Shown piece by piece: positions 1-5,162 of a DNA stretch of 5,162 nt (the first letter of the stretch is position 1; each line of letters starts with the position of its first letter). Below the pieces are notes generated by a model that did not search any database, was not told the DNA's origin, and saw only the letters and a program-made list of their open reading frames with translations. Origin of the DNA: an uncultured bacterium. GTDB taxonomy: Bacteria; Eisenbacteria; RBG-16-71-46; CAIMUX01. The stretch is taken from positions 1 through 5,162 of the forward strand of contig CAMPIC010000262.1 in the NCBI GenBank assembly GCA_946886185.1, in the 5' to 3' direction. The translations under genes were made by a program, and so were the position numbers.

Positions 1-925
1 CCTCCAGCGCGCTGGACATCGAGCGTAGCAGATCGAGCGGAGCCGGAGTCGCATCCAGCACGTTGAGCGCGATGACTCTTCGAAACCTCTCTTCAGAGAA
101 AGGAAGCACCGTTCCGTCTCCGATCCAGAAGTCGATCCGCTTGCGATCGGGGAAGGGCAACGGAAACTCGCGGCGATCGTAAAGGAGCCCTTGGCGCCGG
201 CGCGGATAGGCGATCGATCCTGTCCGCGCTGCCCGTTGGGCAAGACGGAGCATCGAGACGTTGGTGTCGATCCCGAGAACGACCGACCCTTCCTGCGCTT
301 CCTCGAACACGATCCTCCCCACGGAACAGCCGATCTCCAGGACGCGCTCCGGCGGCTCACCGCCCCCCCCGTGCCTCCGCGACGCGACCGCCTGCGACTC
401 GTGCGCCACGGCCGGGGACTCGAGAGACGGAGTGGATGCACGCGCGAGATCGCGCAAGCGCCGCCACACGTCGACGATCGATCCGGGGCGGGGTTCGCTC
501 GTCCGCGGCTCCTCCGGATCGAACTCGCCGTAATGGTCCCAGGCGTACGTGCTCAGGTGCAGGCGGGTCGAATCGAGCGCGGAACCGGGTCCGCAGCACT
601 CGCCGAGAAGCGCCTCCACGCGGCCGTCCAAATCCTCGCGGGCGAGGAAATGGAAGATGTTCTCGGCGATGAAAGCGCGCGGATCGGGGACCAGCACGGG
701 CAGGCCGTCCACGATCGGATATTCCGCCCGGCAGCGCGTCGAGGTGCAATAGAGCGCCCCCTCTTCGATGGCGTCACCAACCTCGCGGGCAATCCAACCG
801 AGCTCGAGGGGTGGATCGGGATCATGCTCTGGATCGGGATCACGCTGTGCGATCCCATTGCCCAGGCGGGCGAGCTTGCAGGCCGGGCAGATCGGGCGGA
901 GCGTTTCGAAGTGGAGCCGTTTCAT
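1..925 (-). CDS. Zinc-ribbon (Trm112-like) class I SAM-dependent methyltransferase, 3' end beyond the window
   Basis: The frame is open from ATG 925-923 to the left edge (308 codons, no stop), so the C-terminus is missing. Residues 11-81 look like a Trm112/UPF0434-type zinc ribbon: CPAC at 13-16, a second Cys pair at C60 and C65, then the typical 'YPIVDGLPVLVPD' at 69-81. A helical linker follows. The SAM-binding fold begins with motif I 'VLEIGCSVGR' (195-204), followed by the acidic residue after beta-2 (D220 in 'LGIDTN') and a motif near 265-275 (DFWIGDGTVLPF). This architecture is common in bacterial methyltransferases acting on small molecules, lipids or sugars; the substrate cannot be told. 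A weak purine-rich ribosome site (GAGGATGAGG) precedes ATG 925. The same frame stays open upstream, and ATG 1057 is a possible earlier start. The gene diverges from the MidA-like methyltransferase at 1149. Residues 29-38 contain a short DPDP-EH-DPDP duplication. The family is fairly certain, the start less so. Confidence 0.85.
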   Translation of the reverse strand, partial: MKRLHFETLRPICPACKLARLGNGIAQRDPDPEHDPDPPLELGWIAREVGDAIEEGALYCTSTRCRAEYPIVDGLPVLVPDPRAFIAENIFHFLAREDLDGRVEALLGECCGPGSALDSTRLHLSTYAWDHYGEFDPEEPRTSEPRPGSIVDVWRRLRDLARASTPSLESPAVAHESQAVASRRHGGGGEPPERVLEIGCSVGRIVFEEAQEGSVVLGIDTNVSMLRLAQRAARTGSIAYPRRRQGLLYDRREFPLPFPDRKRIDFWIGDGTVLPFSEERFRRVIALNVLDATPAPLDLLRSMSSALE

Positions 926-929
926 CGCC

Positions 930-1154
930 TCATCCTCGCCGAGCCATTCGACGCTCCCGTGCCGCGTATATGCAGCTCGAGCATCCGTGAAGGTGCACGA
1001 TCTCGATGCCGCTCCACTGCTTCGCGAAGTACTCCGCAACGAGGCGGCGATGGCCATGGTGCGGCATGTCTTCGCTGCAGAGCAAGCAGGCTCCTTCTTC
1101 GCGAATCCGGCCAGTTGCGATAACGTTGCCGAGAAGGGCAAGGGAACGATGAGA
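930..1154 (-). pseudogene. C-terminal remnant of a DUF488-family protein, apparently frameshifted
   Basis: A 74-codon open stretch lies between TGA 1157-1155 and TGA 932-930, with no ATG near its beginning. It encodes 'LLCSEDMPHHGHRRLVAEY' (codons from 1085 to 1029) followed by 'GIEIVHL' (1012-990). This closely resembles the conserved C-terminal signature of DUF488 proteins (LLC-E-x-P-x-x-C-HR-x-L-x-AEYL ... GIEVVH). The Cys usually found before the HR pair is Gly here. The N-terminal two thirds of the family are absent: no frame further upstream resembles DUF488. After the VH codons (998-993) the likely continuation moves into the methyltransferase frame, reading 'FTDARAAYTRHGSVEWLGED' up to ATG 925. 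A one-base deletion near 992 would join the two. It may be a decayed gene, a broken fusion with the methyltransferase, or a sequencing/assembly error. The assignment is by pattern recognition only. Confidence 0.45.
1140..1145 (+). promoter_or_regulatory. Ribosome binding site supporting the start at 1149
   Basis: AAGGGA lies 3 bases before ATG 1149, with a further GAGAAGGG at 1131-1138. The next in-frame ATG (1269) has only pyrimidines and GC-rich sequence before it, so 1149 is the preferred start. Confidence 0.5.
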
Positions 1155-2945
1155 TCATCTCCAGAGCGCGGATCGGACACGGGTCGGTCTTCGGAGCAGG
1201 ATGCTCGGCCGCGCCATCCGGTCGAGGTGCTCGATTCGCTGCCCGCCGCCAGCGCCCCGACTTCCCCCATGGTAACGGACCGAATCCTCCTGCAGGATTG
1301 GAAGCCGCTCACCGAGACGTTGGAATGGCATCTCTCCCGGCGAACCTGGTCGGCGCGCGGACTCGATCCGTTCGTGCAGGGAGAAGTGCCGCACGTCGTC
1401 AACAACGTCGCCTGGGTGGCGGAGAATGCCGCGGCCGTCTTGCTCGCGCGCGTTCGCGAGCAGGAGCTTCTTCCCGACCGCATCCAGGTGCTCGAGCTCG
1501 GGGCGGGCCTCGGTCTTTTCGCGCGTCAATTCCTGGCGTCGTTTCGCCGGCTTTCGCGTGAGGAAGCCGAGTACGGGCGATTGACCTACTGGGTCACCGA
1601 CGGTTCCGAACGAACGGTCGAGCGCTGGGAAGCGTCCGGACTCTTTCGCGACCATGCCCCACACGTGCGGGCGTTGGTTTGCGATGCGACCCGACTGCGC
1701 GCGGCTTCAGGTGGCGATGGAGGATCGGAAGCGCAGCGCGCGGCCGGTCCGGGGCCTCTGCCGGCTGCATCCTTCCACCTGATCATCGCGAACTATCTGT
1801 TCGATTCCCTCCCGGCGACGATCGTGCGCCCCCTGCCCGGCGGCGGTTTCGCCGAGATGCAGGTCCGCACGTATCTGGATCCGGACGGACAACGAGAGAT
1901 CGCGCGGCGATTCGGTTGGGAGACGCCAGAGCTGGCGCGGATCGTGGAGGATCCCGCCTCCGATGAGCGCCTTGCCTCGATCCTGCCCTACTGCTCGTTC
2001 GAGGTGGCCTTCGCGCCTCCCGCGCAGCCGCCGCGTCATCAGGACCTGCTCTCCTCCCTGGATCGAGCGGACCGGATGGCGCTCAATCACGGCGCGATCG
2101 ACTGTCTCGACTCCGCGGTCCACCTGCTTCGGGACGAGGGCATGATCCTGTATCGCGACCTCGGCGCGGGTGGGCGCGAAGCGATGGCTGAGCGATCCTA
2201 TTCGGCGCGCTTTGGCACGACCGTCGTGGCCACGCTCAACTTTCCACTTCTCGATCTCCATCTACGGTCGCTCGGCTTCTCCGTCCTTGCCCCGAAAGAG
2301 GATGAGCTTCGCGCCATCCATACCCGGCTTGCGCTGCGCGGCGCGTCGGGCGCCGCGCGCGCGTTTCACGAACGCTTCGACGAGGATCGATACGGCCTGG
2401 CCGACGCTGCCTCCGCGGAAGCGGCTCGTTCGATCCACGAAGGGAAGCTCGATCACGCCCTCGCTTCTTACCGCCGGGCGCTGGAGCTCTGCCCCGACGA
2501 TTGGCAGATCCTCGGTCAGGTCGCGCAGTTCCTGACCCAGCAAATGTTGCGGACCGCCGAAGCGCTGGAGCTGGTGGAGCAGGCTCTGGAGATCAATCCG
2601 GAGTTCAGCGCCTTCCTCTGGAACACGTTCGGAAACTGCCGCTTCGTGATGGGGGACGTCGCAGGCGCGCACCAGGCGTATCTCAAGGCGCGCGCCATCG
2701 ACCCTCGCGACGTCCAGGCTCACCTCAACCTCGCGTACACCTACGCCTCGAACGACGCGTTGGACGAGGCGTTGGAAGCAGTCGCTCGCGGGCTCGCCAG
2801 TGACTTGGACGGGCGCTTCGAGTCGGCGCTCCTCGGGAAGCAGAGGGAGATCCTGACCCGCCTGGAGCAGCGCCGCCGCGACGAGAATGCGCGGTCGACG
2901 GCTCGACATCGAGCCTTCACCACACTCGAGCCTACCGGGGAGTGA
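1149..2945 (+). CDS. MidA-like SAM-dependent methyltransferase fused to C-terminal TPR repeats
   Basis: From ATG 1149 the product is 598 residues. Residues 1-40 look disordered (Ser/Pro/Arg-rich). From residue 41 (ATG 1269, alternative start) a helical region leads to motif I 'VLELGAGLGLFARQF' (114-128). 'YWVTDGSERTVERW' (147-160) covers the acidic-residue region after beta-2. 'LIIANYLFDSLP' (211-222) resembles the motif of MidA-type methyltransferases (ANE-FDALP). A late strand 'GMILYRDLGA' (331-340) completes the fold. The C-terminal third has about four TPR-like helix pairs: about 418-452 (AARSIHEGKLDHALASYRRA), 455-486, 489-520 (FGNCRFVMGDVAGAHQAYLK) and 523-556, then a charged helix. MidA-family enzymes methylate proteins, including a complex I subunit in mitochondria, and TPRs bind protein partners. 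A protein substrate is therefore a reasonable inference, but it is not shown. The product is probably cytoplasmic: no signal peptide or membrane segment is visible. Frame continuity upstream to 768 overlaps the divergent methyltransferase and is not coding. Confidence 0.85.
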   Translation: MRSSPERGSDTGRSSEQDARPRHPVEVLDSLPAASAPTSPMVTDRILLQDWKPLTETLEWHLSRRTWSARGLDPFVQGEVPHVVNNVAWVAENAAAVLLARVREQELLPDRIQVLELGAGLGLFARQFLASFRRLSREEAEYGRLTYWVTDGSERTVERWEASGLFRDHAPHVRALVCDATRLRAASGGDGGSEAQRAAGPGPLPAASFHLIIANYLFDSLPATIVRPLPGGGFAEMQVRTYLDPDGQREIARRFGWETPELARIVEDPASDERLASILPYCSFEVAFAPPAQPPRHQDLLSSLDRADRMALNHGAIDCLDSAVHLLRDEGMILYRDLGAGGREAMAERSYSARFGTTVVATLNFPLLDLHLRSLGFSVLAPKEDELRAIHTRLALRGASGAARAFHERFDEDRYGLADAASAEAARSIHEGKLDHALASYRRALELCPDDWQILGQVAQFLTQQMLRTAEALELVEQALEINPEFSAFLWNTFGNCRFVMGDVAGAHQAYLKARAIDPRDVQAHLNLAYTYASNDALDEALEAVARGLASDLDGRFESALLGKQREILTRLEQRRRDENARSTARHRAFTTLEPTGE

Positions 2946-3165: not shown

Positions 3166-3172
3166 GGGGTGG

Positions 3173-3335
3173 TCGGCTGGGTCGGCTAGTCGTCGGCTGG
3201 TCCTCGGCTGGTGGTCGGCTGGTGGTCGGCTGGTGGTCGGCTGGTGGTCGGCTGGTGGTCGGCTAGTCGTCGGCTGCTGGTCGGCTAGTCGTCGGCTGCT
3301 GGTCGGCTGGACATCGGCTGGTGGTCGGCTGGACA
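3173..3335. repeat. 11-bp tandem repeat array, consensus TCGGCTGGTGG, 14 full units
   Basis: After a 9-bp partial unit (3173-3181), exactly 14 head-to-tail 11-bp units run from 3182 to 3335. Every unit keeps TCGGCT in its first six bases; the last five vary (GGTGG, AGTCG, GCTGG, GGTCC, GGACA). Five units in a row (3204-3258) are identical. Later units alternate in pairs: AGTCG/GCTGG twice (3259-3302), and GGACA on both sides of GGTGG (3303-3335), which suggests a 22-bp higher-order duplication. Eleven bases is about one helical turn, so each unit would face the same side of the DNA. There are no spacers, so it is not CRISPR. All frames stay open through it because 11 is not a multiple of 3, which makes the Pro/Thr/Arg-rich minus-strand frame an artefact. 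It ends about 85 bases before the COMM-like gene. Confidence 0.95.
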
Positions 3336-3378: not shown

Positions 3379-3407
3379 CGGATTCGTTCGGGAACGTGTG
3401 ACCTGGG

Positions 3408-3413
3408 AAAGGA
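3408..3413 (+). promoter_or_regulatory. Ribosome binding site deciding the GTG start at 3421
   Basis: AAAGGA sits 7 bases before GTG 3421. The earlier in-frame GTG at 3352 lies inside the inverted repeat and has no such site, so 3421 is preferred. Confidence 0.6.
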
Positions 3414-3420
3414 ATCGCTT

Positions 3421-4020
3421 GTGGACATCCCTCTTCGATCCTGCGGCGCAGCGGCGCCTCCCCTGCCCATAGTGGAAGGTTGGAAACAATATCTGGAGCT
3501 ATCGGATCCGGTTCAGCTCGACGTCTGGAAACTGGTTGTCGATTCCCTGGCGGAGCCGAACGACGCCAACAATGTGCAGCAGCGCGTCGAGGCAGTGAGC
3601 GCGGTGCACGACGTGTCCGCGGGCGATGTCGTCGCGGCGGCGCTGGCGTGCCAGGTCCTCCTCGGCGGCGCTTATGCGAACGATCTCACGCGCGAAGAGT
3701 TCGCGCAGGATCTGACGACCCTTTCGGAGGGCAGCACGGACGGACTCGAGGTGATCCTCAGCCGCTATGACGTGGTCAAGGCAGAGCTGCGCCATGTCGA
3801 GGATGCGCAGGTCATGGCGGATCACGGAAAGGTACTGGAGAACGTGGAGTGGCGGCTGGACAAGATCGTTTCTTCCAGTCGCGGCTACCATCGCGAGTCG
3901 GACGTGATCTTCCTCACGATCGAATATCGTGAGGGAAACACGCCCGGACGGACGACCTTCCAGGTGAGCGCGCGCGGCCTGCAATCACTCAAACGCTTCA
4001 TGGCCCGCTTCCAGTCCTGA
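3421..4020 (+). CDS. COMM-domain-like (COMMD-like) small protein
   Basis: The product is 199 residues from GTG 3421, close to the 170-220 residues usual for COMMD proteins. The N-terminal half is predicted helical: 'DVWKLVVDSL' (34-43), a helix around 65-83, then 'LTREEFAQDLTTLSE' (89-103) and 'VILSRYDVVKAELRH' (111-125), the pattern of the helical N-terminal domain of COMMD proteins. The C-terminal part matches the COMM domain layout: 'VLENVEWRLDKIVSSS' (138-153, W144, R145, D147, S151-153), a strand 'DVIFLTIEYREG' (161-172), a strand 'RTTFQVS' (177-183), and the final amphipathic helix 'GLQSLKRFMARF' (186-197). COMMD proteins are known chiefly from eukaryotes, where ten paralogues assemble in the Commander complex for endosomal recycling, so a bacterial homologue is unexpected; its role here is unknown. 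No signal peptide or membrane segment is seen. It lies alone between two repeat arrays and converges on the PAAR gene. The gene is certain, the COMM call fairly likely. Confidence 0.7.
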   Translation: MDIPLRSCGAAAPPLPIVEGWKQYLELSDPVQLDVWKLVVDSLAEPNDANNVQQRVEAVSAVHDVSAGDVVAAALACQVLLGGAYANDLTREEFAQDLTTLSEGSTDGLEVILSRYDVVKAELRHVEDAQVMADHGKVLENVEWRLDKIVSSSRGYHRESDVIFLTIEYREGNTPGRTTFQVSARGLQSLKRFMARFQS

Positions 4021-4025
4021 ACGGA

Positions 4026-4209
4026 ACTCCCGCGCCGGGAGTGACTCGCGCGAAAACCATGCCAGCTACTCCCGCCCCGGGAGTGAACTCGCGCGAAAAC
4101 CGTGCCAGCTATTCCCGCGACGGGAGTGACTCGCGCGAAACCGTGCCAGCTATTCCCGCGACGGGAGTGACTCGCGCGAAACCGTGCCAGCTACTCCCGC
4201 GCCGGGAGT
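4026..4209. repeat. Tandem array of five 17-bp palindromes in 41-43 bp units between convergent genes
   Basis: Four complete units (4026-4067, 4068-4110, 4111-4151, 4152-4192) and the head of a fifth (4193-4209) follow the COMM-like stop by 5 bases and end 11 bases before the PAAR-like stop. Each starts with a palindrome of seven-base arms and a three-base loop (ACTCCCG-CGC-CGGGAGT; loops CGC, CCC or CGA). Each complete unit then has a spacer with the 8-bp palindrome TCGCGCGA and ending CC(A/G)TGCCAGCT. Units 3 and 4 are identical and change the arm to ATTCCCG, which still pairs through a wobble. The hairpins could act as bidirectional transcript ends for the two convergent genes, but they lack T-runs. 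Open frames through the array are by-products of the repetition. Confidence 0.95.
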
Positions 4210-4220
4210 GGCTTGCGGTG

Positions 4221-4607
4221 TTACCCGCCGAATTTCACATTCGGGCTGCAGGGAGGCATGATCTTGCCGACCGGCGCGGGGATCGGAGCGACGCAGCTCA
4301 CGTGCGAGGTCATATCGTTGGCGCGCGCGGCTCCCAGAGAGTTGGCTTTCACCGTCATCGACGCCTTCGCGATCATGCCCGGTCCGGCCGGGACGCAGCT
4401 CGGGAGCATGCACGGCTTGGACTTGTCGGTCATCCTGGCCGCCGCCTTGTTGTTCACCTTCACGTTGGGCGAACAGGTGATGATGATGTCCAGGGGCAGC
4501 CCGGGATGCGGAACGGGAGTCGGCACCGGAGCCGCCGGATGGATCGGCGCATGGCAATGCGGCGCATCCTGCTTCATCTTGTCGCCCATTCTTGCTGCCG
4601 ATGGCAT
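4221..4607 (-). CDS. PAAR-like type VI secretion spike-tip protein
   Basis: The product has 128 residues, small like stand-alone PAAR/DUF4150-type proteins that sharpen the VgrG spike of T6SS. It starts with 'MPSAARMGDK' (1-10), a typical PAAR opening, followed by a His/Cys/Pro-rich loop (H17, C18, H19, H23) and the repeat-like strands 'ITCSPNVKVNNKAAARMTDK' (43-62) and 'MIAKASMTVKANSLGAARAN' (78-97). It closes with 'CSPNVKFGG' (120-128). The 'SPNV.vN..aAAR..D' pattern occurs two to three times, as expected for the PAAR beta-fold. Several His and Cys residues (H102, C105, C120 among others) could bind the tip metal. No toxin extension is present, so any effector would be separate. A 156-bp gap without visible genes (4608-4763) separates it from the upstream gene on the same strand; the two may be co-transcribed. 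Confidence 0.85.
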   Translation of the reverse strand: MPSAARMGDKMKQDAPHCHAPIHPAAPVPTPVPHPGLPLDIIITCSPNVKVNNKAAARMTDKSKPCMLPSCVPAGPGMIAKASMTVKANSLGAARANDMTSHVSCVAPIPAPVGKIMPPCSPNVKFGG

Positions 4608-4763: not shown

Positions 4764-5162
4764 CTAGCGACCGGAACCGTGCGGGTCGTGCGGGTCGTTC
4801 ACCCCAGGATCCTCCGCCTCCACTTCTTCGGACTCTTCCGGGTACTCGACGCCTTCATCATGGTAGCCCGTTCGATCCAGGCAGTTCAGATTGACGTAGT
4901 CGCCGTCGATGAAGGTCTGCTTGGCCGACTTCACACGGATCTCGCGACCGCTCCGCAGCGAAAGGTCCGATCCTGACTGGATCGTCAGATCCTCACGAGC
5001 GGCGATCTCCAGGCTGCGGCACTGGATCTTGATGCTATCGGAGGAATCGAGCACGAGCTGCCCTCCCCGCAGCTTCACGATCGGCCCGCGCTCGGTCAGC
5101 TCGATCGAAAGCTCGACTTCCCCTCTGGGGGAACGCAGCTCGAGCACTTCGCTCTGCGCGCC
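4764..5162 (-). CDS. C-terminal part of a beta-repeat protein, probably T6SS spike or baseplate accessory; 5' end beyond the window
   Basis: The frame is open from the right edge to TAG at 4766-4764 (132 residues seen). A GTG at 5147 could be a start, but the frame continues upstream and no ribosome site is evident, so the gene is taken as partial. The visible part is a run of short alternating beta strands: 'VLELRSPRGEVELSIELT', 'PIVKLRGGQLVLDSSDSIKI', 'RSLEIAAREDLTIQSGSDLS', then 'REIRVKSAKQTFIDGDYVNL'. This pattern recalls the C-terminal beta-helix of VgrG/gp5-type spikes and the DUF3540-like proteins encoded near PAAR genes in some T6SS clusters. An acidic, Pro-rich tail with a DPHDPH duplication follows, encoded by a short 9-bp direct repeat near 4777-4795. 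Its place directly upstream of the PAAR gene supports a spike-related role. The exact family is not settled. Confidence 0.65.
   Translation of the reverse strand, partial: GAQSEVLELRSPRGEVELSIELTERGPIVKLRGGQLVLDSSDSIKIQCRSLEIAAREDLTIQSGSDLSLRSGREIRVKSAKQTFIDGDYVNLNCLDRTGYHDEGVEYPEESEEVEAEDPGVNDPHDPHGSGR

Follow-up and report, generated by a model that had tools for sequence, protein, structure and literature searches.

A bacterial COMMD homologue and the type VI secretion spike genes that accompany many of its relatives

Two kinds of described system bear on the gene reported here. The COMM domains of eukaryotic COMMD proteins form dimers and a ring, and the 2023 Commander structure paper reports having identified no COMMD homologue in Bacteria or Archaea and places the probable origin of the family on the eukaryotic stem (PMC10187114). 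In the type VI secretion system (T6SS), PAAR-like (PIPY) tips are chaperoned by DUF2169 proteins, and formation of the VgrG-PAAR spike is supported by Tvp complexes with DUF3540 and pentapeptide proteins, as described in two further papers (PMC11883445, PMC13373197). The gene in question lies in a stretch of 5,162 nucleotides (contig CAMPIC010000262.1, assembly GCA_946886185.1) from an uncultured Eisenbacteria member; the whole of this stretch is referred to as the window. The gene encodes a genuine bacterial COMMD homologue, here called COMM for short. It is not the first, as several Sorangium proteins carry the public name “COMM domain-containing protein”. What is new is the T6SS spike neighbourhood of bacterial COMM genes, bacterial COMMDs themselves being already known. 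A literature search, in which papers were judged largely by titles and the beginnings of abstracts, found none on bacterial COMMDs and none in which T6SS or VgrG is connected with COMMDs or their COMM domain. The Tvp paper mentions neither “COMM domain” nor “COMMD” in its main text.

The open reading frame (3421-4020, forward strand) comprises 199 codons for amino acids, with a GTG start and a TGA stop at 4018-4020. A metagenomic relative of 199 aa (P0002) is 92% identical and begins MDIPLRSCGG at the same start point, and a second one (P0003) is 79% identical; these identities indicate that the gene is conserved. An earlier note, made from the DNA alone, had described a COMMD-like protein with a base composition like that of its neighbours. 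The latter is confirmed by codon-position composition, with a GC3 (G+C content at third codon positions) of 0.74 compared with 0.76 and 0.78.

The COMMD identity likewise holds, through a match to PF07258, a profile of relatives that reaches human COMMDs, and a predicted COMM fold. PF07258 matches residues 139-190 at 23.5 bits versus a cut-off of 22.4 (E 6.2e-5), and the Pfam scan of the window protein by itself gave no HN match. When the window protein and family were tested, the HN domain was present, either as PF21672 or as a fold. Among 52 relatives, the Pfam COMM_domain was found in 48 and COMM_HN in 37 at E up to 1. A profile of these 52 relatives matched human COMMD7 (3.4e-9) and COMMD4 (9e-9) across most of the length, and COMMD1, 2, 5, 10 and 8 at E up to 3e-4, with COMMD5 covered over most of its own length. 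COMMD9 and COMMD3 matched weakly (E about 0.1 and 0.5), and COMMD6 was not matched by this profile of bacterial sequences. A profile that included three human sequences reached PDB chains of each of the ten human COMMDs, a result that is partly circular because those three were already contained in it.

In the window protein, the WRLD signature occupies residues 144-147 and SSS residues 151-153. Of the 59 alignment rows, 56 share W144, 58 share R145 and 53 share D147, and the W-R-D positions are also seen in the human COMMD1 and COMMD4 rows of the profile alignment. AlphaFold2, with a 52-sequence input, predicted the monomer at a pLDDT (predicted local distance difference test) of 89.6 and a pTM (predicted template modelling score) of 0.73. 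The model consists of HN helices (15-26, 29-44, 49-63, 67-86, 91-101, 109-113 and 116-135) followed by a COMM sheet of strands 137-151, 158-171 and 174-182 and a last helix at 184-198. The helical N-terminal half, the WRLD/SSS signature and the terminal helix of the COMMD plan are thus as first described, while the two strands of that description become three predicted ones. Structure comparison of the model ranked human COMMDs highest, together with a COMMD-like protein from a bacterium. Taken separately, the HN and COMM domains of COMMD9 lie 3.0 and 2.1 Å from the model, and the larger whole-chain root-mean-square deviation would fit a different angle between the two domains. A significant profile match and a predicted COMM fold were therefore both found, where the earlier note had named the lack of both as refuting its reading.

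The same note had called the gene stand-alone. This has to be corrected, as genes for a PAAR protein and a VgrG-tail-like protein lie close by (Table 1). Many bacterial COMM relatives sit in T6SS spike modules made up of VgrG, DUF2169, pentapeptide, DUF3540 and PAAR-like genes. For example, loci L005 and L006 share the order VgrG, COMM, a protein designated X, DUF2169-pentapeptide, a further pentapeptide-type frame, DUF3540 and PAAR-like, and the same kinds of gene lie near COMM in L003 and L004. Fifty further stretches, 41 covering all 47 matches in the family to which the Sorangium genome G005 belongs and nine covering the remaining genomes, were scanned together with the window using context hidden Markov models built from the first COMM loci. 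Some loci behind these models recur among the tested stretches, so that those self-matches are not independent; the Pfam matches are. At least one spike-type gene was present in the stretch for 45 of 58 COMM matches, and at least three kinds for 41 of 58, protein X and peptidase S41 being left out of these counts.

DUF3540 occurs in 29 of the 41 COMM stretches of the G005 family versus 0.66 expected from copy number and genome size. All 29 genes exceed the curated Pfam cut-off (the lowest at 39.1 bits versus 27.9). Since six stretches within the sample (L067-L072) are closely similar, independent linkage events number fewer than 29, and the expected value, which uses DUF3540 copy numbers from up to 26 candidates per genome, may be too low; a several-fold error in it would leave the excess standing. 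At the level of genomes, DUF3540 was found in 26/26 COMM-positive members of the family versus 11/82 others, a co-occurrence to which genome size may contribute. The T6SS sheath protein TssC was found in all 33 COMM-positive genomes tested, a set without G071 and G211 (weak COMM matches), although its match was weak in G145 (4e-6) and had a lower score in G991 (3.7e-47). Spike linkage recurs in loci whose lineages bear several different names, and COMM nearly overlaps VgrG in Sorangium and in L067-L072.

Two further components of these modules deserve mention. Protein X was found in 29 stretches with a rebuilt profile and in several modules separates COMM from DUF2169. It gave no Pfam match above cut-off and an NCBIfam match at chance level; on the basis of one sub-threshold match in L059, to the T4 gp5 trimerisation domain, it is perhaps another spike-like beta-structure. 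The second is a PAAR-like domain fused to peptidase S41. Where different COMM genes share one stretch, they are 27-34% identical.

The distribution of bacterial COMM matches is patchy. In phylum samples, each of which includes the genome on which it was centred, COMM was found in 7/235 genomes for G005, two of them (G071 and G211) weak or partial, in 3/249 for G003 (Gemmatimonadales locus), in 1/246 for G001 (Phycisphaeraceae locus) and in 1/247 for G002 (Deltaproteobacteria locus). These counts are lower bounds, as 12-13 candidates were scored per genome. Family-level searches gave 26/108 genomes for G005, with up to four matches in a genome, and 4/78 for G003; a search of the G169 family (13/60 genomes) overlaps that of G005 and is not counted again. 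Searched against 155 genomes of the G002 class, the window protein matched G002 alone. A third homology search, with divergent members as queries, yielded four proteins, two of them new (P0048 and P0049). A protein scan of viral contigs produced a single 17-residue match (L001) and an alignment scan of them no relative, and tblastn at E 0.01 gave no match in phages (query P0001) or plasmids (query P0005). One protein, P0047, joins a GTPase-like start to a COMM tail and is likely a misassembly; it was therefore excluded from alignment A4 and the context profile, although alignment A3, with which the genomes were searched, did contain it. A divergent COMM-like protein was also observed at L101:8920-9540, with a weak profile match and seemingly F in place of the family W, and its 19-kb stretch holds no tracked spike genes.

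A tree was built from 48 rows, comprising 45 of 59 bacterial sequences (14 near copies or duplicate rows were dropped) and three of the ten human paralogues, COMMD1 in part; the weak or partial matches of L101 and L102 were left out. The three human COMMDs are separated from all bacterial sequences by a long branch whose support, 80/94, is not strong, and the human branches are very long and were flagged by the tree program itself. Within the bacterial part, the window sequence clusters with those from Gemmatimonadales, Phycisphaeraceae and G002 (86/88). The long branch, together with the spread of profile matches over several paralogues, argues against recent capture of one eukaryotic paralogue, so that a recent eukaryotic origin appears unlikely. 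The gene had been proposed to be either ancestral or acquired from a eukaryote. Recent acquisition is thus disfavoured by phylogeny and profile spread, and an ancient relationship may run in either direction. The earlier note had also argued against very recent transfer from the neighbour-like composition, an observation that holds.

Judged by its gene neighbourhood, the bacterial COMMD most likely acts in the cytosol, as an oligomer, as an accessory factor for some T6SS spikes, a role that we hold with roughly even confidence. Its binding partners would be VgrG, the PAAR or PAAR-like tip, or both, alongside beta-prism proteins of the DUF3540 or VgrG-tail-like kind, and as a chaperone or adaptor it would assist in building, holding or loading the spike prior to firing. 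The occurrence of COMM in a subset of Tvp-type modules, beside VgrG or PAAR-like genes, fits such a further factor. The window member may itself oligomerise; a homo-oligomeric form is plausible since PDB titles describe a Flavobacteriaceae COMMD-like protein as octameric. The two COMM types of L078/L082, and those of L085/L088, pair in the tree with support of 100/99 to 100/100, which indicates that such pairs were inherited together and suggests mixed oligomers. It is conceivable, albeit doubtful, that COMMDs are old bacterial spike-assembly factors, that the Commander ring descends from such an oligomeric chaperone, and that the co-inherited pairs are the counterpart of COMMD heterodimers. 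The bacterial family contradicts the statement in PMC10187114 that no COMMD homologues were identified in Bacteria. It also gives COMMDs a candidate job outside eukaryotes that is open to gene-deletion tests, and may represent a new accessory protein of the machinery that loads T6SS spikes.

Several observations weigh against an accessory role. The argument is drawn from gene neighbourhood, and the window is truncated, with a VgrG-like gene of its own that is sub-threshold. Many DUF3540 modules lack COMM (G005 has 12 DUF3540 and two COMM matches), which implies that COMM is not a core part of the module. A trio of methyltransferase, PAAR and methyltransferase/TPR genes resembling that of the window occurs in G1254 with no COMM match within 19.8 kb, and COMM is thus optional in that arrangement as well. 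Its position also varies: it adjoins VgrG, or a PAAR-like gene or the S41 end of one, often on the opposite strand, and in 15 of 55 COMM genes no tracked gene lies within 250 bp. Finally, spike genes are missing from the stretches of 13 of the 58 COMM matches, namely those of the orphan Sorangium clade (six, one on a 4-kb contig), L079 (at a contig end), L081, L083, L091, L101 (one) and L102 (two), the last two stretches contributing partial or weak matches. These 13, and the variable placement and strand, are what would be expected if COMM were a genomic passenger with a general cell role, found near spike modules as a fellow gene of accessory islands. This is unlikely, however, in view of the DUF3540 excess, the repetition of spike linkage across differently named lineages and the near-overlap with VgrG.

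A quite improbable alternative is that COMM is a T6SS cargo, an injected mimic that disturbs the Commander of amoebal or other eukaryotic predators. The family is known mainly from eukaryotes, COMM adjoins VgrG or PAAR-like genes in many loci, and some genomes hold several diverged copies. A mimic sits poorly with a profile that is close to no human paralogue in particular, with the long branch that parts the three human sequences from the bacterial ones, and with orphan Sorangium copies away from spike genes. COMM could also be an immunity protein for a module toxin, such as the S41 part fused to the PAAR-like protein, and an S41 match does lie within 250 bp in 15 of 55 COMM genes. Eight stretches (L059, L062, L064, L077, L095, L097, L098 and L100) nevertheless have a PAAR-like gene and no S41 match, and the frequent opposite-strand placement of COMM is not usual for a typical effector-immunity pair, making this role very unlikely. 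As for a COMM-like fold reached independently of COMMD, it could appeal to a PF07258 score just 1.1 bits above the cut-off and to the missing Pfam HN match of the window sequence. It is contradicted by the two-domain profile matches to several human COMMDs, the HN and COMM matches in most relatives, the conserved W-R-D positions and a structural match that spans both domains, and was rejected as extremely improbable.

Table 1. Positions of features in the window and in COMM-bearing stretches from other genomes
Feature	Position	Strand	Remarks
Methyltransferase, Trm112-like start, cut by window start	2..925	-	PF08241 and PF13649 above cut-off, Trm112p below (scanned as 2-946)
Methyltransferase (Methyltransf_28) and TPR protein	1149..2945	+	start uncertain, ATG 1149 or 1269; Pfam scan from 1266
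Probable ribosome-binding site GGGAAAGGA	3405..3413	+	Shine-Dalgarno-like, 7 nt before GTG; putative, read from sequence
COMMD-family gene	3421..4020	+	HN helical domain ~residues 14-130, COMM domain ~134-199
PAAR-motif protein, T6SS spike tip	4221..4607	-	convergent with COMM gene; PF05488 39.1 bits vs cut-off 27
VgrG-tail-like / beta-prism repeat protein, cut by window end	4764..5162	-	sub-threshold profile matches
Protein X	L059:10390-11775, L062:10225-11481, L077:2533-4005, L088:12147-13334		between COMM and DUF2169
PAAR-like domain fused to peptidase S41	L016:427-1545, L023:2229-3374		within COMM-bearing modules

The arrangement of the window is resembled, in a different gene order, by that of a Phycisphaeraceae metagenome-assembled genome (L002/L099), with genes for VgrG, Trm112-methyltransferase, PAAR, methyltransferase/TPR, a VgrG-tail-like protein and COMM. 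The window PAAR is 79% identical (125 aa) to the PAAR near this COMM gene, the methyltransferase at the window start is 41% identical (310 aa) to its L002 relative, and the methyltransferase/TPR protein is 43% identical (555 aa) to one close to the L002 COMM gene. Among 298 genomes of the G001 class, the best matches to the window methyltransferase/TPR gene were in G001 (44%) and G1254 (40%), and the remaining listed matches almost all cover the TPR part. The truncated gene at the window end encodes a product 57-58% identical (95-99 aa) to that of the gene directly preceding COMM in L002. Its Pfam matches all fall below cut-off (DUF2345 at 17.5 versus 30.7 bits, DUF3540 at 12.0 versus 27.9), as does NCBIfam TssI (18.1 bits versus 100), whereas L002 carries a full VgrG. 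Two tandem repeats were also observed: about 15 copies of an 11-bp unit, GGTGGTCGGCT, at 3168-3332 just upstream of the COMM gene, and 4.6 copies of a 41-bp unit with an inner palindrome at 4026-4217, between the convergent COMM and PAAR genes.

Among proteins of known structure, the COMM domain-containing proteins of PDB 9ZA1 and 9ZA2 belong to the same family as the window protein (phmmer E 1.9e-24 and 3.9e-29; 31% and 33% identical). Over the stretches compared, they match the orphan (193 aa) and VgrG-linked (189 aa) COMM proteins of the So0157-2 genome, respectively, with 100% identity, and on account of this their organism is probably Sorangium. Both chains bear an extra C-terminal copy of the 9ZA2 COMM-domain tail, perhaps a feature of the construct. 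PDB 9Q6A and 9Q6C, released in October 2025 under titles describing an octameric COMMD-like protein (MBK5214510, Flavobacteriaceae bacterium), are also bacterial. The first shares its fold with the window model (Foldseek E 4.3e-6), and neither was among the matches of COMM sequence profiles against the PDB, so that they apparently represent a distant bacterial branch. With respect to gene content, the parts found around most COMM relatives examined are those of the Tvp Class III accessory systems (DUF2169-pentapeptide, pentapeptide, DUF3540 and PAAR). The window and its Phycisphaeraceae relative differ from these in their PAAR plus VgrG-tail variant; no DUF2169 was seen in the 5.2-kb window or the 19-kb L099, although most of the other COMM stretches examined do contain it. 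The eukaryotic COMMD1-10 of Commander/CCC have HN and COMM domains, a fold and a sequence signature in common with the window protein, and according to PMC10187114 they form a hetero-decamer with CCDC22/CCDC93. Unlike Commander/CCC, bacterial COMMDs are linked to T6SS, and a positive genome carries 1 to 4 of them.
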